64,000 bases of DNA from Nocardia farcinica (lineage in GTDB: Bacteria; Actinomycetota; Actinomycetes; Mycobacteriales; Mycobacteriaceae). Below, in pieces: positions 10,055 to 29,711 of this stretch (within the stretch, counting starts at the first letter, position 1; every line of letters starts with the position of its first letter). The notes below the pieces were generated by a model that was not told where the DNA came from, did not search any database, and saw only the letters and a program-made list of their open reading frames with translations. The stretch spans positions 2,232,001 through 2,296,000 of the forward strand of contig NZ_LN868939.1 of the NCBI RefSeq assembly GCF_001182745.1, in the 5' to 3' direction. A program made the translations under genes and the position numbers.

Positions 10055-10798
10055 TCAGGCGCGCCAGATCTGCTCGCCCGCGCGGGAGAGCACGATGTTG
10101 GGCACCACCGCGTTGCGAGACAGCCGGGTGATCGCCAGCACCATCTCGGCCACATCACCGGTGGTCAGCATCGCCGCGCGGTCGAGTTCGTCGCGCTTCC
10201 ACGCCGTCATGTCGGTGTCCACATAGCCGGGCGAGATGGCCGTGGCGCTCACCCCGCCCGCCGACTCCTCGAGCGACACCGTCTCGCACAGCGAGATCAG
10301 CGCCGCCTTGGTCGCGCCGTAGGCAGCCAGGCCCGCCTCCCCGGCGACGCCCGTGATCGAGGCCAGCGCAACGATTTTCGCACCGCGGGCGGCATCCTCG
10401 GCGGCACTCTTGCGCAGCAGCGGCAGCGCCGCCTGGATGAGGGTGATCGGCCCGCGGAAGTTGACGTCGAGCATCCGCTCGTAGGTCTTGGCGGGCATGT
10501 CGGCGACCGCGCCCGCCGTGCCGGTGCCCGCGCTGAGCACCAGCACGTTCATTCCGCCGAACGCCGCATCGTGCGCGGCGGCCAGCGCGCGCACCTGCTC
10601 GGGCTCGTTCATGCGCGCGACCACCGGCTGCACCCGCACGCCGTACTCCGCGCGCAACCGCTGGGCGGTCTGCTCGAGGGTGTCGGCGGTGCGGGCGGCG
10701 AGGGTGAGCTGGTAGCCCTCGGCGGCCAGCCGGGCGGCGATCTCGGCACCGATGCCCCGCGACCCGCCGGTGACCAGCGCCGATCGCGTGCCCGTCAT
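10055..10798 (-). CDS. Short-chain dehydrogenase/reductase
   Basis: A 247-residue classical SDR. The cofactor motif is ALVTGGSRGIGAEIA at residue 7 onward, the structural LVLSAGTGTAG motif follows near 88, the catalytic Ser lies in ALASITGVAGEAG, and the YGATK motif holds the catalytic Tyr and Lys. The ATG overlaps the thiolase stop by 4 nt (ATGA), so the two are co-translated. With the thiolase it may act in beta-oxidation or in degradation of a branched or cyclic acid. Substrate specificity is not visible. Confidence 0.87.
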   Translation of the reverse strand: MTGTRSALVTGGSRGIGAEIAARLAAEGYQLTLAARTADTLEQTAQRLRAEYGVRVQPVVARMNEPEQVRALAAAHDAAFGGMNVLVLSAGTGTAGAVADMPAKTYERMLDVNFRGPITLIQAALPLLRKSAAEDAARGAKIVALASITGVAGEAGLAAYGATKAALISLCETVSLEESAGGVSATAISPGYVDTDMTAWKRDELDRAAMLTTGDVAEMVLAITRLSRNAVVPNIVLSRAGEQIWRA

Positions 10799-15492: not shown

Positions 15493-16244
15493 GGCGCGGC
15501 GAACCCCGCGCGGTCGAAGATCTCCCGCGCCTGCGGTGACCGGACGAAGTCGACGAACGCCGCCGCGGTGGCGGGTTCGGGGGCGGCGGCCAGCGGCGCG
15601 ATCGGGTAGTCGTTGAGCACACGCTCGGATTCGGGGAAGTCGATGCCCTCCACCCGCTCGGCCGCGGCGGCCACATCGGTGCGGTAGACCAGTGCGGCGT
15701 CCACCTCGCCCAGGGTCACCTTGGTGAGCACCGCCTTGACGTCGGCTTCGCGGGTGTCCGGCTGGGCGGTGATGCCCGCCAGGTCGAATACCTTCCGCGC
15801 CGCGGCACCGCAGGGCACCTGCTCGGCGCACAGCGCGAGCACCGGTTCGGGCCTGCCGAAATCGGCCAGCCCGGTGATGCCCGCCGGGTTGCCGGCCGGC
15901 ACCGCGATCTGGAGCCGGTTGCGCACGAACGTGACCGGGGTCGCGGTGATCCGGCCCGCGGCCACGACCTGGCCCATGTTCTCCGGTGACGCGGCGGCGA
16001 AGACGTCGGCGGGCCCGCCCTGGCGCAGCTGCTCGGCCAGGGCGGAGCTGGCGCCGAAGCTGAACACCACCTCGGTGCCCGGGTTGGCGGCTTCGAAGCG
16101 GTCGCCGAGCTCGGTGAAGGTCTGGGTCAGCGAGGCCGCGGCGAACACCGTGATCGTGCGGGTGGCGTCCGGCTCGCTCGCGCAGCCGGTCGCGCAGGTG
16201 GCCAGGACGACGACGGCGGCGACTGCGCCGACCAGGCTTCTCAT
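15489..16244 (-). CDS. modA: Molybdate-binding lipoprotein ModA
   Basis: A 251-residue receptor with a signal peptide and lipobox ending in Cys21 (ATGC). The mature protein begins with TITVFAAASLTQTFTELG, the ModA signature with ligand-binding serine, and continues with VVFSFGASSALAEQLRQGG and a late ALVYRTDVAAA motif. It captures molybdate outside the membrane and passes it to ModB. The ATG overlaps the stop of the upstream HTH-TOBE gene by 4 nt. Confidence 0.92.
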   Translation of the reverse strand: MRSLVGAVAAVVVLATCATGCASEPDATRTITVFAAASLTQTFTELGDRFEAANPGTEVVFSFGASSALAEQLRQGGPADVFAAASPENMGQVVAAGRITATPVTFVRNRLQIAVPAGNPAGITGLADFGRPEPVLALCAEQVPCGAAARKVFDLAGITAQPDTREADVKAVLTKVTLGEVDAALVYRTDVAAAAERVEGIDFPESERVLNDYPIAPLAAAPEPATAAAFVDFVRSPQAREIFDRAGFAAP

Positions 16245-16648
16245 CCGCGGGTACCTTCCGGGATCTCGACCACGACGTGGGTGGACTTCACCGAGGCGAC
16301 CGCGACGCTGCCCACCTCGAGGCCGAGTTCGTCGACCGATTCCCGGCTCAGCAGCGACACCAGCCGGAACGGGCCGGCCTGCATCTCCACCTGCGCCATC
16401 ACCGTGTCCTTGACGATCCGGGTGACGATCCCGCGCATCCGGTTACGGGCCGACGCGGCCACGGTGACGCCGGGTTCCGGCGCCTCGGCGGTGCTGCGCA
16501 GGAATTCCGCGAGATCCTTGCCCGCCACCCCCTTGCGCCCGTTGTCCAGCTGGATGGCGGGCAGCTTCCCCTGATCCATCCAGCGCCGCACGGTGTCGTC
16601 GCTGACACCGAGCAGCGCGGCGGCCTCGCTGATCCGCAAACTCGTCAC
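16241..16648 (-). CDS. HTH-TOBE one-component molybdate regulator
   Basis: A 135-residue protein with a MerR/excisionase-type helix-turn-helix at residues 4-50 (LRISEAAALLGVSDDTVRRW then MDQGKLPAIQLDNGRKGV) and a single TOBE/mop domain from about 65 (RNRMRGIVTRIVKDTVMAQV). It is much smaller than E. coli ModE but should sense molybdate through the mop domain, and it is the first gene of the modABC operon, so autoregulation is likely. The GTG at 16648 is placed by a TATTGT -10 element 7 nt upstream; no ribosome site is seen. Confidence 0.85.
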   Translation of the reverse strand: MTSLRISEAAALLGVSDDTVRRWMDQGKLPAIQLDNGRKGVAGKDLAEFLRSTAEAPEPGVTVAASARNRMRGIVTRIVKDTVMAQVEMQAGPFRLVSLLSRESVDELGLEVGSVAVASVKSTHVVVEIPEGTRG

Positions 16649-16952: not shown

Positions 16953-18278
16953 ATGACCGAGACGCAGAATCCCGGGCGGCTGCGACGATCGGTCGCCGCG
17001 TCGGCGATGGGCAACGCCACCGAGTGGTTCGACTACGGCGTCTACGCCGCGACGGCCACCTACCTCACCGACGCGTTCTTTCCCGGTGAACTCGGCACGC
17101 TGGGCACCATGCTCGGCTTCGCCATCTCGTTCGTGCTGCGCCCCCTCGGCGGCATGGTCTGGGGCCCGCTGGGTGACCGGCTCGGCCGCAAGCGGGTGCT
17201 GGCCAGCACGATCCTGTTGATGTCGGCGGCCACCGGCGCGATCGGCCTGCTGCCCACGCACGCCTCGGTCGGCGTGCTCGCGCCCATCCTGCTGATCCTG
17301 CTGCGCGTGCTGCAGGGCTTCTCCACCGGCGGCGAGTACGGCGGCGCGGCGACCTACCTCGCCGAATCCGCCAGCGACCGCCGTCGCGGCTTCTTCGGCA
17401 GCTTCCTCGAGTTCGGCACGCTCGCCGGATTCGTCGGCGGCTCGGCCGTGGTACTGGCCTGCCAGCTGGTGCTCGGCTCGGACGCCATGCACGACTGGGG
17501 CTGGCGCATCCCGTTCCTGATCGCGGTGCCGCTCGGCCTGACCGGCCTGTACCTGCGCTCGCGGTTGGACGAGTCGCCGGTGTTCAAGGAGGTGGCCCAG
17601 AACCCGCACCCGCCGACCGGCCTGCGCGAGCTGATCCTGCACTACCGCCGCGAGCTGCTCACCCTGGGCGGCCTGGTGATCGCGCTGAACGTGGTCAACT
17701 ACACGCTGCTGACCTACCAGCCGACCTACCTGCAGAAGACCATCGGCATGTCCGAGTCCGCCACCACCACGATGATGCTCATCGGGCAGGTGGTGATCAT
17801 GCTGGTGTTGCCGTTCTTCGGCGCGATCTCCGACCGGGTCGGCCGCCGACCGATGTGGTTGTTCTCGCTGGTCGGCCTGGCCGTGTGCGCGGTGCCGATG
17901 TACTGGCTGATGGGCCAGGGTCCGGTGTGGGCGGTTCTCGGCTTCGTGGTGCTCGGCCTGCTGTACGTGCCGCAGCTGTCCACCATCAGCGCCACCTTCC
18001 CGGCGATCTTCCCCACCCATGTCCGGTACGCGGGCTTCGCGCTGGCCTACAACGTCTCGACCGCGGCCTTCGGTGGCACCGCGCCGCTGGTGAACGAGGC
18101 TGTCATCGAGTCGACCGGTTGGGTGCTGTTCCCCGCCCTCTACATGGTGGGCGCCTCGTTGCTCGGCCTGGTCGCCTGGGCCTATCTGCGCGAGACCGCG
18201 GGCACGTCGCTGCGCGGTACCGAGGTTCCCGACGCCCAGCGGGCGGCCGTTCCGGTCGCCGCCGCGGCGGCGGGCTGA
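16953..18278 (+). CDS. MFS transporter, metabolite:H+ symporter (ProP-like) family
   Basis: A 441-residue, 12-helix permease of the MHS subfamily, whose members co-transport protons with betaine, proline, citrate, ketoglutarate or shikimate. Diagnostic features are MGNATEWFDYGVYAAT at the first helix, GDRLGRKRVL between helices 2 and 3, LQGFSTGGEYGGAATYLAE at helix 4 and RRGFFGSFLEFG after it; the repeated loop ISDRVGRRPMW lies in the second half. The ATG has a strong GAGGAGG site. A compatible-solute substrate is most likely, but specificity cannot be read. Confidence 0.88.
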   Translation: MTETQNPGRLRRSVAASAMGNATEWFDYGVYAATATYLTDAFFPGELGTLGTMLGFAISFVLRPLGGMVWGPLGDRLGRKRVLASTILLMSAATGAIGLLPTHASVGVLAPILLILLRVLQGFSTGGEYGGAATYLAESASDRRRGFFGSFLEFGTLAGFVGGSAVVLACQLVLGSDAMHDWGWRIPFLIAVPLGLTGLYLRSRLDESPVFKEVAQNPHPPTGLRELILHYRRELLTLGGLVIALNVVNYTLLTYQPTYLQKTIGMSESATTTMMLIGQVVIMLVLPFFGAISDRVGRRPMWLFSLVGLAVCAVPMYWLMGQGPVWAVLGFVVLGLLYVPQLSTISATFPAIFPTHVRYAGFALAYNVSTAAFGGTAPLVNEAVIESTGWVLFPALYMVGASLLGLVAWAYLRETAGTSLRGTEVPDAQRAAVPVAAAAAG

Positions 18279-18671
18279 CCGGCGGCGCCCACGGTCACGG
18301 TCCGGCGTCGGGGGTCGGGCCGGGTTCGGGGGTGCGGTCGCCGGGGCGGCGCCGTCGAGGGTGCGGGTGGATCACTCACTCGTCCTCGGCGGCGATCGCT
18401 TGCTGCGTGGTTGCCGAAAGCGCCGTGCCCCGGCCCGAGCGCGCATGGTGCGCGGAACATCGTGCGGCGCAGACCCTTTCGAGCGCGCAGCCTAGGTGAC
18501 CGTTGCCGGTGTGACAAGAGTGCGGTCGACTGTTTTATGTCACAACGGTTCCCGCTGGCGTGTAGGTGTCCGGTGAGTAACCTACTGTCGAGTAGCCCGT
18601 CATCGGGCCCGCCGGAGCGTGATGCGGCACAGTTCGTACAAAACGGGCACAGCACGAAAGCGTAAGGGACA
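18279..18671. other. Intergenic region upstream of the GNAT gene
   Basis: About 390 bases with no supported gene. TGTGACA (18510-18516) and TGTCACA (18538-18544) form an inverted pair 21 nt apart around an AT-richer segment, and CTACT-GTCG-AGTAG forms a small inverted repeat about 40 nt further on. Either could be a regulatory site, but no regulator is linked. Confidence 0.35.
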
Positions 18672-19307
18672 GTGGTGAACCAGCAGGCTCGTCCGGTCGT
18701 TCGCCGAGCCACCCACCGGGACGCGGACGACATCGTGCGAGTCATCGCACAGGCCTTCGAGACCGACGATCCGATCGAGGAGTACGTCTTCCCGTCGCTC
18801 GCGGAGCGGCGCAAGCGCACACCGGCGATGCTGCGGGTGATGCTCCGCCATCGTTTCCTGCCGATCGGCGGCGCCTCGGTCGCGCTGCTCGACGACCGCG
18901 TCGTCGGCGCCGCGCTGTACTACCCGCCGCGGCACCGCACACCGCTGTGGCACCAAGCGGTGGCCGGTCCGCAACTGATGCGGGCGATGGGGGCGGCGGG
19001 CACCCGCCGCGGCATGGCGGTCGACGCGGCGATGGCGCGGGTGGCGCCGAACCGACCGCACACCTTCCTGGTGTACCTGGGATGTGCGCCCGGCCTGCAG
19101 CGCCGCGGCGTGGGCAAGGCGCTGTGGGGCGCGCTGGCCGAGGCATCCGATGCCGCCGAGGCGAGTCTCGGCGGCATCTGCAAGGACGACAATGTCGCCT
19201 ACTATCGCGCGCTCGGCTGCGACGTGGTCGAGCGCGTCCGGGTCGGCCGGGACGGGCCGGAGATGAACATGGTGCTGCGCCCACCCGCGCGTCCCGCCCC
19301 GCGCTGA
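18672..19307 (+). CDS. GNAT family N-acetyltransferase
   Basis: A 211-residue acetyl-CoA-dependent N-acyltransferase. The fold is seen from VRRATHRDADDIVRVIAQAF at the N-terminus to the acetyl-CoA motif FLVYLGCAPGLQRRGVGKAL around residue 140, with CKDDNVAYYRALGCDVVERV near the end. Two GTG codons are adjacent at the start; an AAGGGACA ribosome site precedes them. It lies 63 nt upstream of the large PKS on the same strand and may share its transcript. If so, it could acylate the amine that the alpha-oxoamine synthase would create; that link is inference. Confidence 0.83.
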   Translation: MVNQQARPVVRRATHRDADDIVRVIAQAFETDDPIEEYVFPSLAERRKRTPAMLRVMLRHRFLPIGGASVALLDDRVVGAALYYPPRHRTPLWHQAVAGPQLMRAMGAAGTRRGMAVDAAMARVAPNRPHTFLVYLGCAPGLQRRGVGKALWGALAEASDAAEASLGGICKDDNVAYYRALGCDVVERVRVGRDGPEMNMVLRPPARPAPR

Positions 19308-19370
19308 TCAGCCCCCGGCGCCGGGTTGTTTCGAGTTCGCCGGGTCTTTCGAGTTCTACGAGGAGTCGTT

Positions 19371-22300
19371 GTGTCTGACATCGCCGTTGTCGGTATCGGT
19401 TGCCGGTACGCGGGCGGTATCGATTCGCCGGAATCGTTCTGGGACTTCCTGATCGACAAACGCGACGGCGTGGTCGACATCCCACCGCAGCGCTGGGACT
19501 ACCGGCGCTTCTACGACCCGGACAAGCGCACCCCGGGCCGCATGTACACCAAACGCGCCGCCTTCATGACCGGCGATCCGTGGGAATTCGACCCCGATTT
19601 CTTCGGTATCTCCCCGCGCGAAGCGGCCTCGATGGACCCGCAACAGCGCCTGATCCTCGAGGTGGCCTGGGAGGCGCTCGACGACGCGGGCATCGCGGGC
19701 CGGGTGGCGGGCAGGCCGGTCGGCGTCTACGTCGGTGCGTTCACCCTGGACCAGCTGGCGGTGTCGGTGGCCGGTGACGCGCTGCCGCACGTGGACATGC
19801 ACACCGCCGTCGGCGCCTCCTACACCATGCTGTCCAACCGGATCGCCTACGCGCTCAACCTGGTCGGGCCCGCCGTCACCGTCGACACGGCGTGCTCGTC
19901 CTCGCTGGTCGCCCTGCACCTGGCCTGTCAGGCGCTGGACAACGGCGACTGCGAGGTGGCGATGGCGGGCGGCGTCACCATGCTGCTGCAACCCGAACCG
20001 TTCGTGTCCATGTGCAAGGGCGGCTTCCTGGCCGCCGACGGCCGCAGCAAGCCGTTCGACGCCGCCGCCGACGGCTACGGCCGCGGCGAGGGCTCGGGCA
20101 TGGTCGTGCTCAAGAAACTCGCCGACGCCGAACGCGACGGCGACCGGATCTACGCGGTGATCAAGGCGACCGGGTCCAATCAGGACGGCCGCACCACCGC
20201 CATCACGGTGCCGAACGCCGATTTGCAGGAGGCACTGGCCAAGTCGGTCACCGAGCGGGCCGGTATCGCGCCGCACCAGGTGACCTACGTCGAGGCGCAC
20301 GGCACCGGCACCCCCGTGGGTGACCCGCTGGAGCTGCGGGCCATCGGCCGCGCCTACGGGCAGGTGCCCGGCCGCACCCGGCCGCTCGGGGTCGGTTCGG
20401 TGAAGGGGCAGCTCGGGCACACCGAGGCCGCCTCGGGCATCGCGAGCGTGATCAAGTCGGCGCTGGCCATCGCGCACCGCACGATCGCGCCGCAGGGCTG
20501 GCTGAACGAGCCGAACCCGGAGATCCCCTTCGACGAACTGGGGATCCGGCTCCAGCTCGAGGCCGAACCGGTCGGCCCCGAGGTGGAGCGGATGACCATC
20601 GCGGTCAACGGTTTCGGCTACGGCGGCACCAACGCGCACGCCATCCTCCAGGAGTACGTGGCGCCGCCGCGTCCGGCGCGGCCACCCCGCCATCACGGCG
20701 TGCTGCCGCTGTCGGGCCGCAGCGAACCGGCCGTGCGGGAGCTGGCCCGCGGCTTCGCCGAACAGATCGCCGCGGGCGGCGATCCGCAGCGCCTCGCCGA
20801 AGCCGCCTGGACCCGCCGCCAGCACCACCCCTACCGCACCGCGGTGCCCTTCGGCGACGAGGCCGACCTGGTGCGCGGCCTGGTCGAGCTGGCCGAGGGC
20901 AGCGCGCGGGGGGCGACCAAGGTGATCCCGCGCCGCGCCGCCGAGCCGGTGTTCGTGTTCACCGGTATGGGCCCGCAGTGGTGGGGGATGGGCAGGCAGC
21001 TGCTGACGGCCGACGGCGCCTTCGCCGCCGAGGCCCGCCGCATCGACGCGGTCTTCCGCGAGATCGCCGGCTGGTCCATCGTCGAGGAGCTGCTGCGCCC
21101 CGAGGACGACTCGCGGGTCACCAGCACCGCCATCGCGCAACCGGCCAATTTCCTCGTGCAGGTGTCGCTGGTCGCCGCGCTCGCCGAACTCGGCATCCGC
21201 CCCGCCGCGGTGGTCGGGCACAGCGTCGGTGAGGTGTCGGCGGCGTATGTCACCGGCATGCTGTCGCTGCACGACGCGCTGCTGGTGAGCTACCACCGGG
21301 CGCGCTTGCAGGCAGGCACGGCCGGCTCGGGCGGCATGCTCGCGGTCGGTCTCGCACCCGCCGCGGCCCGCGACCTCATCGACGGCGACACGCGGGTCGA
21401 TATCGCCGCGATCAACAGCCCCGGCGCGGTGACCCTCGCCGGGGCGGTGGACCGGCTCGACGAGATCGCCGAAAGCCTCACCGCCCAGGGCGTTTTCGCC
21501 AAGCGGTTGCACGTCGAGGTGCCCTACCACAGCTATCTGATGGAGCCGATCCTCGACGAGCTGCGGGGCGCGCTGGCCGACCTGAAGCTCACCGATCCGG
21601 TGCTGCCGCTGTATTCGACGGTGACCGGGCAGCGGGTCACCGCGGGTGACTGGGATGCCGAATACTGGTGCGGCAACGTGCGCAACCCGGTGCGCTTCGC
21701 CGACGCGGTGAGCGCCCTGGTGGCCGACGGCAGCCGGGTGTTCCTCGAGGTCGGCCCCCACCCGGTGCTCGGGGCCAACATCCGCGAGATCCTGATCGGC
21801 GCGGGCGAGACCGGCACCACCGTCGCCACCCTGCATCGCAAGCAGGACGATCACGACAGCCTCCGCCGCACGCTGGCCGGGCTGTACACCGCGGGCGTGC
21901 TCGACATCGACGCGCTCTTCGCCGACCTGCCCGCCACCCCGCACGCCGACCTGCCGCGTTACCCCTGGCAGCGCACGAAGCTGCGCGCGGACCTGCCCGC
22001 CTTCGAACAGCGCAGGCACGGCACACCCGGCGCCTACCCGATGCTCGGCGACCCGGATCTCGGTGATCCGCGCACCACCTGGACGGTGCAGCTGAGTGTG
22101 GGGGCGATGCCGTGGCTGGCCGACCACGTCGTCGGCGGCACCCGTATCCTGCCCGGCGCCGCCTACCTGGACGCGGCGTTGAGCGCGGCCGCGGTCCGCA
22201 CCGAGACCACCCGGGTCGCGGTGGAGGAGGTGCGTTTCGTCGCGCCGCTGGTCGTCGAGGACGGCGACGCGCCCGTGATGGAGCTGCGGGTGGCCGAGTC

Positions 22301-25300
22301 GACCGGGCAGTTCGTCCTCCGTTCGCGCGGCGCGGCGGCCGACGCGTGGACGGTCAACGCCACCGGCAGGCTCGTCGACGGCGTGTTCGCGCCCACCGAG
22401 GTGCGCCTGCCCGACACCGCGGGCATGCACGAGATCGCGCCCGAGGACTTCTACGGCGGGCTGGCCGAGCGCGGTCTGCAGTACGGTCCGGCCTTCCGCC
22501 GGGCCACCGCCGTGCGGGTGCGCGAGACCACCGTGTTGGCCACCCTGGACGCGACGATCGCCGCCGACTCGGGGCATCTGGCGCACCCGTGCGTCGTGGA
22601 CGCCGCGCTACAGAGCATCGCCGCCCTGCTGGTGGGCAGCGGCAACAGCCGGGACGGGGCGATGGTGCCGGTCGGTGTGGACTCGGTACGCGCCTTCGCG
22701 GCACTGCCCGAGCAGGTGACCGTGCTCGCGCGGCTCGACACCGTCGACGAGCCGCGCGCCGACATCGACCTGCTCGGCGCGGACGGGGCCGTGCTGATGC
22801 AGATCCGCGGCATGCGCTTCGGCTCCATCGCTCCCGGCCGTGGCGCACTGGCCAGGATGACCGACTTCTTCTACGAGAACCGGTGGGAGATGCGCGATCC
22901 GGTGGACCGCGGCGCGCTGCCGCCCGAGGACGCGGTGCACACGCTGGTGGTCGATCTGGCCGCCGAGCCGTCCGCGCGTGCCCGCCGCATCGCCGGGCTC
23001 GTCCCGCGCGGCGAACTGCTCACCGTCGGCGAGCCGGGCCGCGCGGATCTCGAGGACGAATTCGTCGCCCGGCTGCACGCCGCCGTCGCCGCGGCGGATG
23101 TGGACCGGGTGCACGTGGTGGTCGTCGCGGGCTCGGGCTACACCGACCTGGACAACCTGTGGACGCTGCGCAGGCTGGCCGTCGCGCTGGAGGGCTTCCT
23201 GGAGGTCCGCATCGACCAGCTCGGCATCGACATGCCGATGACCGGCGACGGCTCGATCCACGCCACGGTCGTCACCGAACAGGCCTACGCCCATCCCGAC
23301 GGCGACACCGCTCCCGACCCGGTGCACGCCGCCGTCGCCGGTGCGCGCCGGGTACTGCTCAACGAACAGCCCCGGCTGCGTTGGCGACTGGTCGACCTCG
23401 ACGCCGACACCGCCGACCCCGAACTGGCCGCGGAGCTGGCCGTGCCCGGCGCCTTCAGCTACGACCACGCCGACGAGGTGTTCCTGCGCCACGGCGTGCG
23501 GTGGGTCACCGTGGTGACCGCGAGCCTGCCCGAGCGGATCGAGGCCCTCGACCAGGCGGCGCCGCTCACCGATCCGGAGGCGAACTTCGCGCTGGAGATC
23601 CCCAAGTCGCGGGTGCTTTCCCGGCTGGCCTGGCGCGAATGCGGCCGCCGCGCACCGGGTCCGGGCGAGGTGGAGGTGCGGATGCGGGCCGTCGGCCTGA
23701 ACTACAAGGATCCGCTGAAGATCCTCGGCGTGCTCACCGAACGCGATCTGGCGCAGACCTTCTTCGGCGGCTCGCCGGGCATGGAGGGCATCGGCACGGT
23801 CGTCCGGGTGGGCGCGGGCGTCGACCACGTCGCGGTGGGTGACACGGTCAGTCTGGGCTGCAAGGACATGATCCGCCGCTACAACACCGCCGACGCCGAC
23901 CTGATCAGCCGGCTCGACCCGGACACCGAGCCGGGGCACTGCACCAACTCCACCGCCTTCGGCACCGCCGAATACGCGCTGCTGGAGCTGGCCCGGGTGC
24001 GGGCGGGCGAGACCGTGCTGGTGCACGGCGCGGCCGGTGGTGTGGGTTCGGCGGCGGTGCAGATCGCGAAACTGCACGGCGCCGTCGTGATCGGCACCGC
24101 GAGCACCGACGAGCGCCGCGCCTACGTGCGCACCCAGGGCGCCGACCACGTGCTGGACTCCCGGTCGCTGAACTTCGCCGAGGACGTGCACGCGCTGACC
24201 GACGGCCGGGGCGTGGACGTGGTGATCAGCACCGCCCCCGGTGACATCCTGCGGCGCAACTTCGTCGCCGTCGCGGAGTTCGGGCGCATCGTGGAGGTCG
24301 GGAAGGCCGACATCTACACCGGCGGCATGCTCGACATGCGCCACTTCGACAAGAACGTCTCCTACCACTCCCTCGATCTGGACCGGATGCTCGCCCGGCG
24401 GCGCGCCGAGACCGTGGCACTGCTGCGCGGTGTCAACGCCAAGCTCGCCGACGGCGTGTACCGGCCGCTGCCCTACGAGCTGTACGGCACCGCCGATGTG
24501 GCGAAGGCGTTCGAGGAGGTGGCCCGCTCGACGCGGATCGGCCGGGTGGCGCTGACCTTCGAGGAGCCGGCGCCGCTGGTGCGGCCGCGCATCCCGGAGG
24601 TCGAGATCGACCCGGCGGCACAATATCTGGTCACCGGCGGCTACGGCGCTTTCGGCCTGGCGGTCGGCCGGTGGCTGGTGCGCAAGGGCGCCACCCGGCT
24701 CGCCCTGCTCGGCCGTGCCGGCGCGAGCAGCGAGGCGGCGCGCAGGCAGCTGGCGGTCTGGCAGGAGATGGGCGTGGCGGTGACCGCCGCGCGCGGCGAC
24801 GTCACCGATCCGGCGGCGATGACCGAGATCCTGCGTGAGCTGCACACCGCCGAGCATCCGCTGCGCGGCATCTTCCACACCGCGGGTGTGCTGGACGACA
24901 AGCGCATCACCATGATGGACCGCGACAGCCTGGCCGCGGTCTACCGGCCGAAGGTGGACGGCACCCGGGCGCTGGTCGATGCGCTCGCGACCATCGGTGC
25001 CGAGTTGGACATGTTCGTGCTGTTCTCCTCCGGCAGCGCCATTTTCGGCGGCGTCGGCCAGTACTCCTACACCGCCGCCAACATCGCGTTGCAGGCCCAG
25101 GCCGATGCCGTCGTGCGCGCCGGCGGCACCGCGCTGGCCATCGGCTGGGGCCACATGTCCGGCGGCGGCATGGCCGAGCACGACGACAACATGGCCCGCT
25201 ACCTGCGCAACACCGGCTTCGACTCGATGCCGCTGGACGAGGGCACCGAGTACATGGAGAAGGCACTCGAACTCGGCCTGCACCACCACGCCGACATCAT

Positions 25301-25829
25301 CCCGATCGACTGGGGCAAGGTCGCCGCGTCGGGCCCGCACTTCGCCCAGACCGGGCGGGTGGCGGCACTCATCGCCGCCGCCGCGCAGGACGATTCGGAG
25401 ACCGCCCGGCTGGCGGCGGCGCTGCGGGAACTCGACGAGGGCAAGCGCGGCGAGGTGGTCGCCTACATGCTGGCCGAGCAGCTGGCCACCGTGATGGGCG
25501 TGGCCGCCGAATCCATCGACCTCACCGTGCCGGTGCCCGAACTCGGCCTCGACTCGCTGATGGCGGTCGAGTTCGGCGCGCTGGTGACCAAGACGCTCGG
25601 CATCGACATGTCCTCGTTGAGCATGGGCCGCACGTTCACCCTCGAGCAGGCCGGTGCCCGGATCGCCGAGCATCTGGTCGGCGGTTCGGGGGACGGCGGT
25701 GACGCCGGGGCCGGAGCGGCGGGGGCGGCAGCGCCAGGGCCGAACGGCGGGACAACCGATCCGGACGGCGCGGCGGTGGCGCCGAACGGTGCGGCGGACG
25801 CAGCGGCCCCCGCGGAGGTGCGGTCGTGA
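19371..25829 (+). CDS. Type I polyketide synthase, one fully reducing module (KS-AT-DH-ER-KR-ACP), no thioesterase
   Basis: A 2152-residue single-module PKS. Domains in order: KS (about 1-430; Cys175 in VDTACSSS, His in EAHGTGTPVGDP and KGQLGHTEAA), AT (about 530-840; Ser618 in GHSVGEVS, with VPYHSYLMEP of the malonyl-like type), DH (about 890-1160; His919 in WLADHVVGG), ER (about 1400-1730; HGAAGGVGSAAVQIAKLHGA), KR (about 1745-1960; YLVTGGYGAFG and the catalytic Tyr in SYTAAN) and ACP (Ser2062 in LGLDSLMAVEF). All catalytic motifs look intact, so it should make saturated chains, probably iteratively. There is no thioesterase; an Ala/Gly/Pro-rich tail follows the ACP. The GTG at 19371 has a GAGGAG site. 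The stop overlaps the alpha-oxoamine synthase start by 4 nt. Confidence 0.93.
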   Translation: MSDIAVVGIGCRYAGGIDSPESFWDFLIDKRDGVVDIPPQRWDYRRFYDPDKRTPGRMYTKRAAFMTGDPWEFDPDFFGISPREAASMDPQQRLILEVAWEALDDAGIAGRVAGRPVGVYVGAFTLDQLAVSVAGDALPHVDMHTAVGASYTMLSNRIAYALNLVGPAVTVDTACSSSLVALHLACQALDNGDCEVAMAGGVTMLLQPEPFVSMCKGGFLAADGRSKPFDAAADGYGRGEGSGMVVLKKLADAERDGDRIYAVIKATGSNQDGRTTAITVPNADLQEALAKSVTERAGIAPHQVTYVEAHGTGTPVGDPLELRAIGRAYGQVPGRTRPLGVGSVKGQLGHTEAASGIASVIKSALAIAHRTIAPQGWLNEPNPEIPFDELGIRLQLEAEPVGPEVERMTIAVNGFGYGGTNAHAILQEYVAPPRPARPPRHHGVLPLSGRSEPAVRELARGFAEQIAAGGDPQRLAEAAWTRRQHHPYRTAVPFGDEADLVRGLVELAEGSARGATKVIPRRAAEPVFVFTGMGPQWWGMGRQLLTADGAFAAEARRIDAVFREIAGWSIVEELLRPEDDSRVTSTAIAQPANFLVQVSLVAALAELGIRPAAVVGHSVGEVSAAYVTGMLSLHDALLVSYHRARLQAGTAGSGGMLAVGLAPAAARDLIDGDTRVDIAAINSPGAVTLAGAVDRLDEIAESLTAQGVFAKRLHVEVPYHSYLMEPILDELRGALADLKLTDPVLPLYSTVTGQRVTAGDWDAEYWCGNVRNPVRFADAVSALVADGSRVFLEVGPHPVLGANIREILIGAGETGTTVATLHRKQDDHDSLRRTLAGLYTAGVLDIDALFADLPATPHADLPRYPWQRTKLRADLPAFEQRRHGTPGAYPMLGDPDLGDPRTTWTVQLSVGAMPWLADHVVGGTRILPGAAYLDAALSAAAVRTETTRVAVEEVRFVAPLVVEDGDAPVMELRVAESTGQFVLRSRGAAADAWTVNATGRLVDGVFAPTEVRLPDTAGMHEIAPEDFYGGLAERGLQYGPAFRRATAVRVRETTVLATLDATIAADSGHLAHPCVVDAALQSIAALLVGSGNSRDGAMVPVGVDSVRAFAALPEQVTVLARLDTVDEPRADIDLLGADGAVLMQIRGMRFGSIAPGRGALARMTDFFYENRWEMRDPVDRGALPPEDAVHTLVVDLAAEPSARARRIAGLVPRGELLTVGEPGRADLEDEFVARLHAAVAAADVDRVHVVVVAGSGYTDLDNLWTLRRLAVALEGFLEVRIDQLGIDMPMTGDGSIHATVVTEQAYAHPDGDTAPDPVHAAVAGARRVLLNEQPRLRWRLVDLDADTADPELAAELAVPGAFSYDHADEVFLRHGVRWVTVVTASLPERIEALDQAAPLTDPEANFALEIPKSRVLSRLAWRECGRRAPGPGEVEVRMRAVGLNYKDPLKILGVLTERDLAQTFFGGSPGMEGIGTVVRVGAGVDHVAVGDTVSLGCKDMIRRYNTADADLISRLDPDTEPGHCTNSTAFGTAEYALLELARVRAGETVLVHGAAGGVGSAAVQIAKLHGAVVIGTASTDERRAYVRTQGADHVLDSRSLNFAEDVHALTDGRGVDVVISTAPGDILRRNFVAVAEFGRIVEVGKADIYTGGMLDMRHFDKNVSYHSLDLDRMLARRRAETVALLRGVNAKLADGVYRPLPYELYGTADVAKAFEEVARSTRIGRVALTFEEPAPLVRPRIPEVEIDPAAQYLVTGGYGAFGLAVGRWLVRKGATRLALLGRAGASSEAARRQLAVWQEMGVAVTAARGDVTDPAAMTEILRELHTAEHPLRGIFHTAGVLDDKRITMMDRDSLAAVYRPKVDGTRALVDALATIGAELDMFVLFSSGSAIFGGVGQYSYTAANIALQAQADAVVRAGGTALAIGWGHMSGGGMAEHDDNMARYLRNTGFDSMPLDEGTEYMEKALELGLHHHADIIPIDWGKVAASGPHFAQTGRVAALIAAAAQDDSETARLAAALRELDEGKRGEVVAYMLAEQLATVMGVAAESIDLTVPVPELGLDSLMAVEFGALVTKTLGIDMSSLSMGRTFTLEQAGARIAEHLVGGSGDGGDAGAGAAGAAAPGPNGGTTDPDGAAVAPNGAADAAAPAEVRS

Positions 25830-27247
25830 GCGAGTCCGCCCGCGAGTTGGCGCGCAAGTTGTTGTCCGCCGGCGGCGCCGCCGCGGGAGCGCCCCCCACC
25901 GGCGGGCCGGGCAGGCCGGGGTCGGGCGTGCCCGCCGCGGCCCCCGCGCGCCCCGCCACCAGTCCGGGACGGCCGGGCGGCACGGCGGCCCGTCCCCGCC
26001 GCGGCCCCGGCAAGCAGTTCGCCGACCACCCCGAGGTGGCCGCGACGGTGGCCAAGCAGGCCGCGATCGACAAGCTCTACGGCGACAGCGACATGCCCAA
26101 TCCGCTGTTCCTGGTGCGGTCGGGCCCCAACGACGCCACGATCCGTGCCGACGATCGCGACCTGATCAACTTCAGCGCCTACAACTACCTCGGCCTGGCC
26201 AACCATCCCCGGGTGGTGCGCGGCGCGAAGGAGGCGCTCGACCGCTACGGCGCGTCCGCCTCGGCCAGCCGCATCATCGCCGGGGAGATCCCGCTCTACC
26301 GTGAGCTGGAGGCCAGGCTGGCCGCACTCTACGGTGTCGGCGACGCCATGATCACCACCAGCGGCTACCTCACCAACGCGGGCGCGCTCGGCTTCCTGCT
26401 GCGCGAGGGCGACGTGGCGGTGTGCGATGCGCTGATCCACGGCAGCGTGGTCTCGGGGACGCAATGGTCGGGGTGCCGCCGGATCACCTTCCGGCACAAC
26501 GATCCCGACGCGCTGCGCGCCGTCCTGCGGATGTCGCGCGCGGGCTTCGACCGCGCCCTGGTGGTGCTGGAGGGGCATTACAGCATGGACGGCACGGTCG
26601 GCCGGGTCGACGAACTGGCCGCCGTGGCACGGGAATACGACTGTGCCGTGATGGTCGACGAGGCGCACTCGTTCGGCGTGTTCGGCGACCGTGGCCACGG
26701 CATCCGCGAGCACTACCGGATGCCCGCCGACGCGGTGGACATCTGGATGGGCACGCTGTCGAAGGCGCTGGGCAGTTGCGGCGGGTTCCTGGCCGCCGAC
26801 GCCGACCTCATCCGCGCGATGAAGGCCGCGGCACCGGGCATCGCGATGCTGACCGGCGGGCCCGCACCGGCCGCGGTCGGCGCCGCGCTGGCCGCGCTCG
26901 ACGTGCTCGCGGACGAACCCGAGCGCCTGACCCGCCTGTGGGCCAACGCGAAACAGTTCACCGCGCTGCTCACCGAACGCGGCCTCGACCTGGGCAGCTC
27001 GGAGGGCACGCCGATCTGCCCGGTGATCGTGCCCGGTGAGGTGCGCTCCGGATTCGTCTCCTCCTACCTGCTGCAGCGCGGGGTGTACGCGGGCAACATC
27101 TCCGCGCCCGCGGTGCCCGCCGGTCAGGAGCGGCTGCGGTTCTTCCTCACCAGCGAACACACCGACGAGCAGCTGGTCACCGCGGCGGATCTGCTCGCCG
27201 AGGCCATCGGTCACGCGCGGCACCTGCCCGACCCGACCGTGCAGTAG
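25826..27247 (+). CDS. PLP-dependent alpha-oxoamine synthase (AONS/SPT-like)
   Basis: A 473-residue enzyme of the family of 8-amino-7-oxononanoate synthase, serine palmitoyltransferase and 5-aminolevulinate synthase. These condense an acyl thioester with an amino acid and lose CO2. Visible are INFSAYNYLGLANHP, the substrate loop ASASRIIAGEIPLYRELE, VMVDEAHSFGVFG for the PLP ring, and GTLSKALGSCGG with the Schiff-base Lys313. The family usually has about 390-400 residues. The extra N-terminus has a short helix (SARELARKLLSAGG) and a Pro/Ala/Gly-rich linker, perhaps docking to the PKS. GTG start overlaps the PKS stop, so it is the likely chain-releasing enzyme. A biotin role is unlikely, as no bio genes are near. 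Confidence 0.9.
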   Translation: MSESARELARKLLSAGGAAAGAPPTGGPGRPGSGVPAAAPARPATSPGRPGGTAARPRRGPGKQFADHPEVAATVAKQAAIDKLYGDSDMPNPLFLVRSGPNDATIRADDRDLINFSAYNYLGLANHPRVVRGAKEALDRYGASASASRIIAGEIPLYRELEARLAALYGVGDAMITTSGYLTNAGALGFLLREGDVAVCDALIHGSVVSGTQWSGCRRITFRHNDPDALRAVLRMSRAGFDRALVVLEGHYSMDGTVGRVDELAAVAREYDCAVMVDEAHSFGVFGDRGHGIREHYRMPADAVDIWMGTLSKALGSCGGFLAADADLIRAMKAAAPGIAMLTGGPAPAAVGAALAALDVLADEPERLTRLWANAKQFTALLTERGLDLGSSEGTPICPVIVPGEVRSGFVSSYLLQRGVYAGNISAPAVPAGQERLRFFLTSEHTDEQLVTAADLLAEAIGHARHLPDPTVQ

Positions 27248-27253
27248 TGCGAG

Positions 27254-27303
27254 AGCCCGGCCGGGCCCTGTTCCCCCCTCCTGGATCAGGGACCGGCCGG
27301 GCT
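27254..27303 (+). terminator. Long hairpin after the PKS operon
   Basis: Arms 27254-27270 and 27287-27303 pair over 17 positions with one mismatch (core AGCCCGGCCGG / CCGGCCGGGCT) around a 16-nt loop. It begins 7 nt after the stop of the synthase gene. No U-tract follows, as is common for actinobacterial terminators. Confidence 0.75.
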
Positions 27304-27370
27304 GGAACAAACCATCCCTCGGGGGTCTTGACAGGGGCTTACAGAGCCCTTAATGGCCCGGTCGTGGCGC

Positions 27371-28120
27371 TCAGCCGAGGCGCCGCACCACCGCGTCGGG
27401 CAGGCGCGGCAGCACCGGGTCGAGCAACCGCCACGGCCAGCCGGGCACGCACGCGCGGCGGCGTTCCCGCTCGATGGCGTCCACCATCGCCGCCACGCCC
27501 TTGTCCAGGGGTGCGACCAGCTGCGCGTCCCCCGCCTTGGCCGCCATGTCGGTGGCGATGAAACCGGGCAGCAGCGTCGTCACCGCGATGGGCGAATCCG
27601 CGAACTCGGTGGCCAGCGCCTCGCCCAGCGCGGCGAGCCCGGCCTTGCTCGCCGAATAGGCGGCCTTCTTTCCGGGCAGCCCGCGCACGGCGCTCATCGA
27701 GGAGACCAGCACCAGGTGTCCGCCGTCCTGGCCGCGGAAGATCTCGAGCGCGGCCTCGGCCTGGGCCAGCGCGCTGACGAAATTCGTGGTGGCGGTGGCG
27801 AGATTGGCGTCGGCGCGGCCGGTGCCCAGCCGGGCGCCCTTGCCGATACCGGCGTTGACGATCACCCGGTCCAGGCCGCCGAGTTCGGCACGCAGCTCGG
27901 CGAAGACGCGCGGGACGGCGGCGTGGTCGTCCACATCGAGCGCCCGCACGGCGACGGTGATGTCCGGGTGGGCGGTGGTGAGTTCGCTCCGCAACTCCTC
28001 GAGCAGCTCCAGCCGCCGCGCGCACAGCGCCAGATCGCGCCCCTTGCGCGCGAACTCGCGTGCCATGCCCGCGCCGAGCCCGGAGCTCGCGCCGGTGATC
28101 AAGATCCTGGTCCTCGTCAT
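27371..28120 (-). CDS. Short-chain dehydrogenase/reductase, possible 3-keto reductase partner
   Basis: A 249-residue SDR with ILITGASSGLGAGMAREFAR at the N-terminus, the VIVNAGIGKG motif, catalytic Ser in VLVSSMSAVRG and the YSASKAG motif with Tyr and Lys. The C-terminal 40 residues (around CVPGWPWRLLDPVLPRLP) include a hydrophobic, membrane-associating stretch as seen in lipid-acting SDRs. It is convergent with the PKS-synthase pair. Reduction of an alpha-amino ketone, as by 3-ketodihydrosphingosine reductase, is an attractive but unproven role. Confidence 0.83.
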   Translation of the reverse strand: MTRTRILITGASSGLGAGMAREFARKGRDLALCARRLELLEELRSELTTAHPDITVAVRALDVDDHAAVPRVFAELRAELGGLDRVIVNAGIGKGARLGTGRADANLATATTNFVSALAQAEAALEIFRGQDGGHLVLVSSMSAVRGLPGKKAAYSASKAGLAALGEALATEFADSPIAVTTLLPGFIATDMAAKAGDAQLVAPLDKGVAAMVDAIERERRRACVPGWPWRLLDPVLPRLPDAVVRRLG

Positions 28121-28385
28121 GGGCCGACCCTAGCCGCGGACCGGGGCCGGGTCACTGCCCGCGGAACCGCTCACCCCCGCGGAATCGGCGGCCGGGAAAC
28201 TCGACAAAGAGATACACGTCACAACGCTCGCGTTCGCGCATGAATTGCGGTCGGGGTGTGGCGGCGGTAACAGTTCGGCAACTGGGGGTTGTCTGGGTGA
28301 TGCTGGCGTTGCCAGAGTGAAGCGTTGGGTTTGGTGTTGCCAATGGGAAGGGAGGGGTGCTCCGTTCCGGGGCACCGACCGAAAC

Positions 28386-29711
28386 ATGAAGCCGACCGTC
28401 ATCACCGCCGCCTGCGCCCTCGCACTGGCCGTCGTGGGAACCGGGCCCGCGGTCGCCGAACCGGTGTCCCCGGAGATGGCCACCAAGCTGGCCGGCCGCA
28501 CCGTCTTCCTGGACCCCGGGCACCAGGGACCGAACCACTCCGAAGACCTGTCCCGCCAAGTCGACAACGGCCGCGGCGGTACCAAGGACTGCCAGACCAC
28601 CGGCATGACCACCGTCAACGGGGTCGCCGAACACACCATCAACTGGAACGTCGCCCAGCTGGTGAAGGCGTCGTTGGAGAGCCTCGGCGCGCGGGTCGTG
28701 CTGAGCCGGCAGGACGACAGCGGCTGGGGCGGCTGCGTGGACGAACGCGCCCGCGCCGCCAACGAGTCCGGCGCCGCCGTCGCGGTCAGCATCCACGCCG
28801 ACAGCGCACCCGCGAGCGAGCGTGGCTTCCACCTGATCGTCCCGCAGTTGCCGGTCCCCGATCCCGAGGTCGATCGGGTGCAGTCCGGACCCGGACTGGC
28901 GGTGTCGAAGGCCGTGCGGGACGCCTACGTGCAGGCCGGTTTCCCGGCCGCCACCTACGCCGGCGTCCGGGAGGGCCTGCAGTCGCGCGCCGATGTCGCC
29001 GGGCCCGCGCTGACCGCGGTGCCGAACGTCTTCGTGGAGATGGGCAACGGCGCCAACCCCGAGGACGCCGCCGTACTCGAATCCGGCGACGGACAACTGA
29101 AACACGCCATCGCCATCACCACCGGCGTGGTGAGCTACCTGCTCAACGCCCCCGTCGACCCGGGCTCCGGCTCGGCCGACCTGCCCGCGGGCGCGGCCCC
29201 CGCCCGCACCGAGCCGAGCGACCCGCTGCCCGCCGCCCCGGAGAACGCCGCCCCGGAGAACGCGCCCACCTCGCCGTCGCCCACGACGCCAGGCTTCACC
29301 GCACCGACCGCCACCGCACCCGCACCGGGTGGGGCACCGGCACCCGCGCCCGGCGCGACCGCACCCGCTCCCGGCACGGCGACCACTCCGGGTGGCGCGA
29401 CTGCTCCGGGCGTCGCGCCGTCACCTGCCCCCGGTGCCGCACCGACACCCGCGCCCGGCGCCGCCCCCACGCCGGGCACCACCGCCACACCCGCGCCGGG
29501 CGCGCGCACGACGCCCGCACCGGCCGGTACCGGCACACCCGCCACCCCGACCTCATCGGCCGCCCCCGCGGTCACCGGCCCGGCGGGCAAGGCACTGGAG
29601 CTGCTCATGCCCCTGGCCCGCGCGCTGGGCATGGACCAGGAGGCCGTCACCGCCGAACTGATCAACCTCGCCTACACCCTGGCCGCCACCCTGTTCCCGC
29701 CCACCAGGTAG
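28386..29711 (+). CDS. Exported zinc N-acetylmuramoyl-L-alanine amidase (Rv3717/Ami1-like)
   Basis: A 441-residue cell-wall hydrolase. A signal peptide (residues 1-24, cut after AVAE-like sites) leads into an Amidase_3 domain (about 35-255). Zinc ligands are His in VFLDPGHQG, Glu in NGVAEHTINWN and His in VSIHADSAP; the catalytic Glu is in VFVEMGNGANPEDA. Residues about 260-400 form a Pro/Ala/Thr/Gly-rich repeat region typical of wall-spanning linkers, followed by a short helical C-terminus (KALELLMPLARALG). It cleaves the stem peptide from muramic acid. The ATG at 28386 is chosen by the signal peptide. No cyclic-di-AMP riboswitch was recognised in the 265 nt upstream. Confidence 0.88.
   Translation: MKPTVITAACALALAVVGTGPAVAEPVSPEMATKLAGRTVFLDPGHQGPNHSEDLSRQVDNGRGGTKDCQTTGMTTVNGVAEHTINWNVAQLVKASLESLGARVVLSRQDDSGWGGCVDERARAANESGAAVAVSIHADSAPASERGFHLIVPQLPVPDPEVDRVQSGPGLAVSKAVRDAYVQAGFPAATYAGVREGLQSRADVAGPALTAVPNVFVEMGNGANPEDAAVLESGDGQLKHAIAITTGVVSYLLNAPVDPGSGSADLPAGAAPARTEPSDPLPAAPENAAPENAPTSPSPTTPGFTAPTATAPAPGGAPAPAPGATAPAPGTATTPGGATAPGVAPSPAPGAAPTPAPGAAPTPGTTATPAPGARTTPAPAGTGTPATPTSSAAPAVTGPAGKALELLMPLARALGMDQEAVTAELINLAYTLAATLFPPTR

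Follow-up and report, generated by a model that had tools for sequence, protein, structure and literature searches.

Gene content of the locus

We analysed a 64,000-nucleotide window of the Nocardia farcinica genome (contig NZ_LN868939.1, positions 2,232,001 to 2,296,000), which carries a three-gene cassette encoding a GNAT acetyltransferase, a single-module type I polyketide synthase (PKS) and an alpha-oxoamine synthase dependent on pyridoxal phosphate (PLP). The host genome is 6.46 Mb, and the nearest relatives of the cassette are found in Nocardia (synthase 87% identical to that of N. arizonensis). A sequence-only reading of this DNA had proposed that the PKS and synthase together make a saturated amino-alcohol lipid, with help from the GNAT and from a convergent short-chain dehydrogenase/reductase (SDR); both accessory genes were recovered at the locus by Pfam. 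The features are as follows, with type A loci defined below.

18672..19307, + strand: GNAT acetyltransferase, puromycin-N-acetyltransferase-like, cassette gene 1
19371..25829, + strand: single-module type I PKS of 2152 residues, KS-AT-DH-ER-KR-ACP, without a thioesterase (TE) domain (Pfam)
19374..20660, + strand: KS domain (PF00109/PF02801; KS tree)
20949..21896, + strand: AT domain with GHSVGE and VPYH, without the YASH/GHSQGE methylmalonyl signature (PF00698)
22062..22832, + strand: DH domain (PF21089/PF14765, two models)
23658..24554, + strand: ER domain (PF08240/PF00107/PF13602, alcohol dehydrogenase models)
24618..25160, + strand: KR domain (PF08659)
25470..25616, + strand: ACP domain with DSL serine (PF00550)
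25826..27247, + strand: PLP-dependent alpha-oxoamine synthase of the PKS-partner clade, 473 residues
25826-25829, + strand: 4-base overlap of PKS and synthase, GTGA
25826..25864, + strand: putative docking helix, a conserved synthase N-terminal stretch preceding a variable linker (alignment of nine type A proteins)
26762..26764, + strand: codon of the PLP lysine, Lys313
27254..27303, + strand: 21-nt inverted repeat with an 8-nt loop, 3' of the synthase; hairpin without a T-run
27371..28120, - strand: convergent SDR, judged outside the cassette

The PKS and synthase had been described as fused by overlap; the GTGA overlap stands, coordinates included, but "fused" is loose, as the genes encode two separate proteins. 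No sigma-70-like promoters or T-run terminators exceeding chance were found within 18250-28600, and a terminator scan did not call the 21-nt inverted repeat. Searches of an anti-phage library returned no match for the GNAT, the synthase or the SDR.

GNAT, PKS and synthase recur together in Nocardia

Across 24 same-genus genomes, PKS-synthase loci fell into three types, with some genomes holding two. By identity to the window synthase, type A comprises the window itself or enzymes at 61-82% (11 genomes), type B enzymes at 49-51% (6 genomes) and type C enzymes at 40-42% (6 genomes). These assignments draw on 40 of the first-look synthase candidates in several of the genomes, and gene order was read in 8/11 type A, 5/6 type B and 3/6 type C genomes, the others being typed by identity alone. 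Type A loci have the order GNAT-PKS-synthase, which was present in 14/14 loci with upstream DNA covered, the window counted in. Because this order recurs so regularly, the arrangement is not one of chance. The 14-locus count leaves out L011 (no upstream DNA), L023 (a synthase fragment without a PKS), L038 (on a contig as long as that of L008, with the GNAT beyond the stretch compared) and the Mycobacterium gordonae locus L010, where a PKS and a synthase are present with no match to the GNAT. In one genome the synthase is split across two frames (G013:C8:30764-32067), and in N. arthritidis NBRC 100137 (L023) a synthase fragment alone was seen; these represent either cassette decay or assembly errors.

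The GNAT was found in 11/11 carriers of a type A synthase and in 0/13 of the other genomes, and in 10/11 carriers both genes lay on one contig about 7 kb apart. It matches puromycin-N-acetyltransferase over its full length in sequence and, in a structure model, in fold, and by both measures resembles amine acetyltransferases. On this co-occurrence the GNAT is a pathway partner, as had been suggested, and is predicted to cap the new amine. GNATs at the Pseudomonas and Paraburkholderia PKS loci described below were considered as homologues and rejected (Paraburkholderia E value 0.88; Pseudomonas no match).

The other two types differ in their gene content. In type B (annotated at L043), the PKS-synthase pair is followed by an FG-GAP/UnbV-ASPIC protein, a membrane protein weakly resembling NQR2/RnfD, a flavin reductase, a DUF1702 protein and an SDR (L043:3672-18593, also L044-L047). 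We take the UnbV/ASPIC-like, NQR2/RnfD-like and DUF1702 proteins to be companions of enediyne clusters, with no obvious enediyne-type role here. Type C (annotated at L050) consists of an acyl ligase, an ACP and a fused KS-AT-ACP-synthase. Presumably type C and the fused A-CP-KS-AT-oxoamine synthase of Streptomyces griseoviridis are linked to prodiginine and RedL. Nocardia has been reported to contain a prodigiosin cluster (PMC12153302).

Beyond Nocardia, plasmids of Pseudomonas, Caballeronia, Paraburkholderia, Sinorhizobium meliloti and Shinella carry the PKS-synthase pair alongside an SDR and genes for capsule or polysaccharide, and three of these five loci also have LTA-synthase genes; in Planktothrix and Streptomyces the PKS and synthase are fused.

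The synthase belongs to a clade of PKS partners

Lys313 lies within GTLSKALG, as the sequence-only reading had it, and together with His205, Asp278, His281 and Arg438 is invariant in 49/49 aligned family members. In a 49-row tree, the window enzyme fell in a 38-row clade (support 100/99) with RkpG-type enzymes, apart from BioF, KBL and serine palmitoyltransferase (SPT). For 36/38 of the clade's loci a PKS lies nearby or in the same protein, none being seen for L017 and L018. The clade is also marked by residue 119, which is Tyr or Phe in 38/38 rows versus Asn in 11/11 others, and by Phe439-Phe440 (38/38 versus 0/11). Type C enzymes lie within it but form a separate clade from the window synthase. 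The tree leaves out L008 (a near-copy), L011, L015, L019, L023 and several short loci, and SgaB itself (see below) is not included.

Placement among BioF enzymes had been named as one outcome that would speak against an off-loading role, and the tree gave no such placement. The synthase scores 307.6 bits against the BioF equivalog model, below the cut-off of 426; the genome holds a separate BioF-like family member, 34% identical to the window synthase; and that protein groups with Escherichia coli BioF (98/91) away from the window enzyme, both being long branches. BioF identity is ruled out by this score, the separate gene and the tree position. The synthase also falls short of curated bacterial SPT scores. 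These results uphold the proposal that the PKS and the oxoamine synthase are a likely decarboxylative off-loading pair.

Counted from the overlap start, synthase residues 3-6 and 8-13 are identical in 9/9 type A proteins (10/11 of positions 3-13) and are followed by a variable linker of 22-44 residues. Given this conservation, it is reasonable to regard the N-terminal stretch as a putative docking helix for the PKS; a structure model places a helix at residues 5-14, with pLDDT mostly <50 and low confidence up to residue 59.

The PKS, its paralogue and its probable extender unit

Pfam placed the six PKS domains in the expected order, and no thioesterase appeared among the 16 Pfam families matched. 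Read by eye, the motifs DTACSSS, HGTGT, GHSVGE, HxxxGxxxxP, TGGxGxxG, YxxxN and DSL are all present, so the earlier description of an intact, TE-less module holds. In a tree of KS domains, from which L038 and L071 (the L077 gene again) were left out, one clade (100/100) united M. gordonae with Nocardia types A and B, matching the synthase tree, and within Nocardia the two trees agreed on the A and B groupings. They disagreed on the fused proteins of Streptomyces and Streptacidiphilus, which joined type C by synthase but stood on their own by KS. No relatives emerged when viral contigs were scanned with the AT.

The best solved relative of the PKS is mycocerosic acid synthase (MAS; PDB 9d2y), at 880 bits. 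This raises the alternative that the PKS is of the mycocerosic-acid type and makes (methyl-branched) fatty acids for envelope lipids, while the synthase supplies or tailors something else. Komaki et al. (PMC4035055) assigned Nocardia PKSs of like size and domain order, possible orthologues of the window PKS, to the "mycocerosic acid" clusters #13 and #30. The genome also contains a paralogue (L077) that is 63% identical to the window PKS across its whole length. At L077:7656-17000 (G000:C1:1043655-1052999) an MFS gene overlaps this MAS-like PKS, a putative esterase is encoded before it and a condensation-domain (PapA-like) protein after it; the scaffold is as in the window and the neighbour enzyme different.

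Several observations nevertheless make this alternative unlikely. The PKS gene overlaps that of the synthase, and the protein scores 1035 bits on the NCBIfam Pks2 model, well under its cut-off of 2400. Moreover, the AT reads GHSVGE and VPYH, motifs common to the other type A and B ATs compared and to the paralogue (M. gordonae has GHSMGE and VPYH), unlike the AT of L075 in the same genome, which has YASH and GHSQGE, a pair that we take to mark methylmalonyl specificity. On this difference, malonyl is the likelier extender than methylmalonyl, a reading based on that signature and on the comparison with L075.

In the KS tree, L077 lies inside the Nocardia clade (100/100), together with type A and M. 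gordonae (100/99) and with type B outside, its placement relative to M. gordonae being weak (85/52). The least-change reading of this topology, which rests on a single paralogue, would be an ancestor that had the synthase and an L077 copy that swapped it for a PapA-like enzyme. An exchange of off-loading enzymes on one PKS scaffold thereby becomes testable.

A predicted N-acylated amino-ketone

We favour, with a probability of roughly 0.6, a reading in which the three genes direct synthesis of an N-acylated, sphingoid-like long-chain alpha-amino ketone, and the cassette itself probably does not reduce the ketone. The PKS would work iteratively, most likely with malonyl-CoA, and assemble a saturated acyl chain attached to its ACP. 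The conserved N-terminal stretch of the synthase may mediate docking on the PKS, whereupon a PLP-bound amino acid would attack the acyl-ACP with loss of CO2. Finally, the GNAT would add an acyl group, acetyl most likely, to the amine so formed, a cap that would also prevent the amino-ketone from dimerising.

The sequence-only reading could match its prediction to no known product, but it overlooked a rhizobial pair whose genes we take to be rkpA and rkpG. It likewise overlooked the SgaA/SgaB sphinganines of Pseudomonas fluorescens MYb115, a strain that loses its C24-C28 sphinganines when either sgaA or sgaB is deleted (PMC12134224). These PKS-derived sphingolipids, reported in 2025 from one Pseudomonas strain, were the first example to their authors' knowledge; 6,101 homologous clusters were counted, and Nocardia is unmentioned in the main text (PMC12134224). 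In condensing acyl-CoA with an amino acid, SgaB takes L-serine almost to the exclusion of alanine and glycine (PMC12134224), and by analogy serine is the most likely amino acid in Nocardia, with glycine or alanine possible. Up to the amino-ketone the Nocardia route would thus most likely resemble that of Sga, and N-acylation would follow. An N-acylated ketone has a parallel in Caulobacter, since there 3-keto-sphinganine is proposed to be acylated before reduction (PMC11087976).

How long the chain grows cannot be read from the sequence, and the pair might instead run few PKS cycles and yield, in place of a membrane lipid, a small amino-ketone that diffuses as a signal or serves as a precursor of pyrazines. 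The autoinducer synthase CqsA is a relative within the family, and an amino-ketone capped by the GNAT could serve as a signal. We nonetheless consider this quite unlikely, as MAS-type PKSs build long chains. The experimentally known PKS-oxoamine synthase system, too, yields sphinganines of C24-C28 (PMC12134224).

If the N-acylated amino-ketone is correct, the cassette points to a lipid not yet described, from a genus with opportunistic pathogens among its members. More tentatively, and at somewhat less than even odds, N-acetylated 3-keto sphingoid bases may make up a lipid class that is new, with a MAS-like PKS off-loaded by a PLP oxoamine synthase (in the paralogue, by a PapA-like enzyme) along an actinobacterial, PKS-built and SPT-free route to sphingoid lipids with acylation replacing ketone reduction. 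Our literature search returned no paper combining Nocardia, oxoamine synthase and polyketide synthase. The main texts of two Nocardia papers (PMC7413640 and PMC12153302) mention neither "oxoamine" nor "sphing", and PMC4035055 mentions neither "aminotransferase" nor "oxononanoate" ("oxoamine" and "sphing" were not searched there).

The convergent SDR

A KDSR-like SDR has been proposed as the reductase of the Pseudomonas sphingolipid cluster (PMC12134224), and SDRs are also present in Nocardia of type B and at the five Gram-negative loci of capsule type. SDRs of PKS-synthase clusters form two groups, one of RkpH, Shinella and type B (38-51% identity; the L043 SDR is 38% identical, 2.5e-54, to the S. 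meliloti SDR taken as RkpH) and one of Pseudomonas, Caballeronia and Paraburkholderia (40-63%). The window SDR belongs to the PRK08251 family (383 bits against a cut-off of 253), is 26-35% identical to all cluster SDRs and falls outside both groups. An unrelated SDR at 10055-10798 is just as close to it (33%). Among 73 own-genome matches to an RkpH-like type B SDR query it ranks 40th, and the best own-genome match to the type B SDR reaches only 5.3e-21, the Pseudomonas-type SDR not having been searched genome-wide.

Nor is the SDR restricted to type A carriers. Orthologues (E 1e-70) occur in 16/24 same-genus genomes, that is in 9/11 type A carriers and 7/13 others, a count that scored 68 candidates per genome and in which absences are less sure; the matches in G016 and G020 are merely 53-55% identical, and the G012 copy has a stop. 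In 1/9 carriers having both, the window genome only, does the SDR share a contig with the type A synthase. At named loci it adjoins the cassette in the window as well as in N. higoensis (L006), lies about 4.7 kb off in L004, and was not found in the covered DNA of L003, L005, L007, L008 and L009. It is also encoded on the strand opposite to the synthase, with the 21-nt inverted repeat between them.

Two findings weigh against treating this SDR as unrelated to the pathway: its matches to the Paraburkholderia (2e-20) and Pseudomonas (3.8e-17) SDRs, at 32-35% identity, are as good as those of RkpH, and the Pseudomonas cluster SDR itself scores 135 bits on the PRK08251 model, though below the 253-bit cut-off. 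On balance the convergent SDR is probably a bystander, and the earlier proposal that it reduces the amino-ketone to a sphinganine-like amino alcohol appears very unlikely, given its family, its position outside the cluster groups and its lack of linkage in 8/9 carriers. Because the SDR is unsupported as a reductase, a saturated amino alcohol is not what the cassette itself encodes, and an amino-ketone, likely N-acylated, fits better.

Neighbouring genes and distant relatives

The minus-strand SDR at 10055-10798, which precedes the cassette by some 8 kb, is nearer to the S. meliloti RkpH-like SDR (32%, 8e-25) than the convergent SDR is. In 3/6 type B genomes (G007:C77, G008:C13, G022:C1) the cluster has the window SDR's orthologue some 11-13 kb away, which suggests that types A and B may occupy one chromosomal neighbourhood. 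Directly 3' of the M. gordonae synthase (L010:11343-12365) lies a zinc alcohol dehydrogenase, partly similar to threonine dehydrogenase and reminiscent of the Tdh-Kbl pairing, which could reduce an amino-ketone. N. cyriacigeorgica loci (L005:11422-12492, L008 and L009) have in common a 357-aa protein just 3' of the synthase, with no match in Pfam or the PDB and not found in the window neighbourhood covered. At 16241-16648 the window encodes a protein with a molybdenum-binding domain and an excisionase-like helix-turn-helix; the MFS gene that precedes the cassette lies on the other strand. On a Burkholderia glumae plasmid (L061), a synthase outside the PKS-partner clade is clustered with bioB, carbamoyltransferase and PKS genes.

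Comparison with known systems

In the fused A-CP-KS-AT-oxoamine synthase of S. griseoviridis (PMC3870968), the oxoamine synthase is joined to KS-AT, as in Nocardia type C. That protein is without reductive domains, unlike the window PKS. Fungal sphinganine-analogue systems (fumonisin, sphingofungin) and saxitoxin biosynthesis likewise release the chain by an oxoamine synthase; they are eukaryotic or cyanobacterial, have other accessory genes, and are likened here by description, not sequence. The enzymes FUM13 and SphF are named in PMC12134224.

With MAS the window PKS shares the order KS-AT-DH-ER-KR-ACP, the missing thioesterase and the use of a separate release enzyme. For MAS this is PapA, an O-acyltransferase, whereas the Nocardia PLP synthase would form a C-C bond, and the window AT lacks the YASH/GHSQGE signature of the methylmalonyl type. 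The capsule clusters exemplified by S. meliloti pSymB (L059), whose genes are presumably rkpA, rkpG and rkpH, share the overlapping PKS and synthase genes, with a synthase 43% identical to that of the window. They are linked to an SDR and capsule genes, whereas no capsule genes were called at the Nocardia locus. The rkpA/wcbR gene class appears in PMC3908369.

A close parallel in logic is SgaA/SgaB(/SgaC), where, as predicted for Nocardia, an iterative single-module type I PKS is paired with an oxoamine synthase, and the latter frees the chain by condensing it with an amino acid. The SgaABC system has the KDSR-like SgaC, and phosphoglycerol sphingolipids are reported from it, whereas in Nocardia a GNAT is part of the cassette and an SDR of this kind is not; the Nocardia PKS and synthase also form their own clades relative to the Gram-negative relatives compared, SgaA and SgaB being absent from the trees. 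The Nocardia cassette is best regarded as a form of PKS-oxoamine-synthase release and not as a member of the SgaABC pathway, since the window SDR fits neither group of cluster reductases. It would bring Sga-like logic to Nocardia, but with an envelope-lipid-type PKS and a GNAT in place of the reductase.

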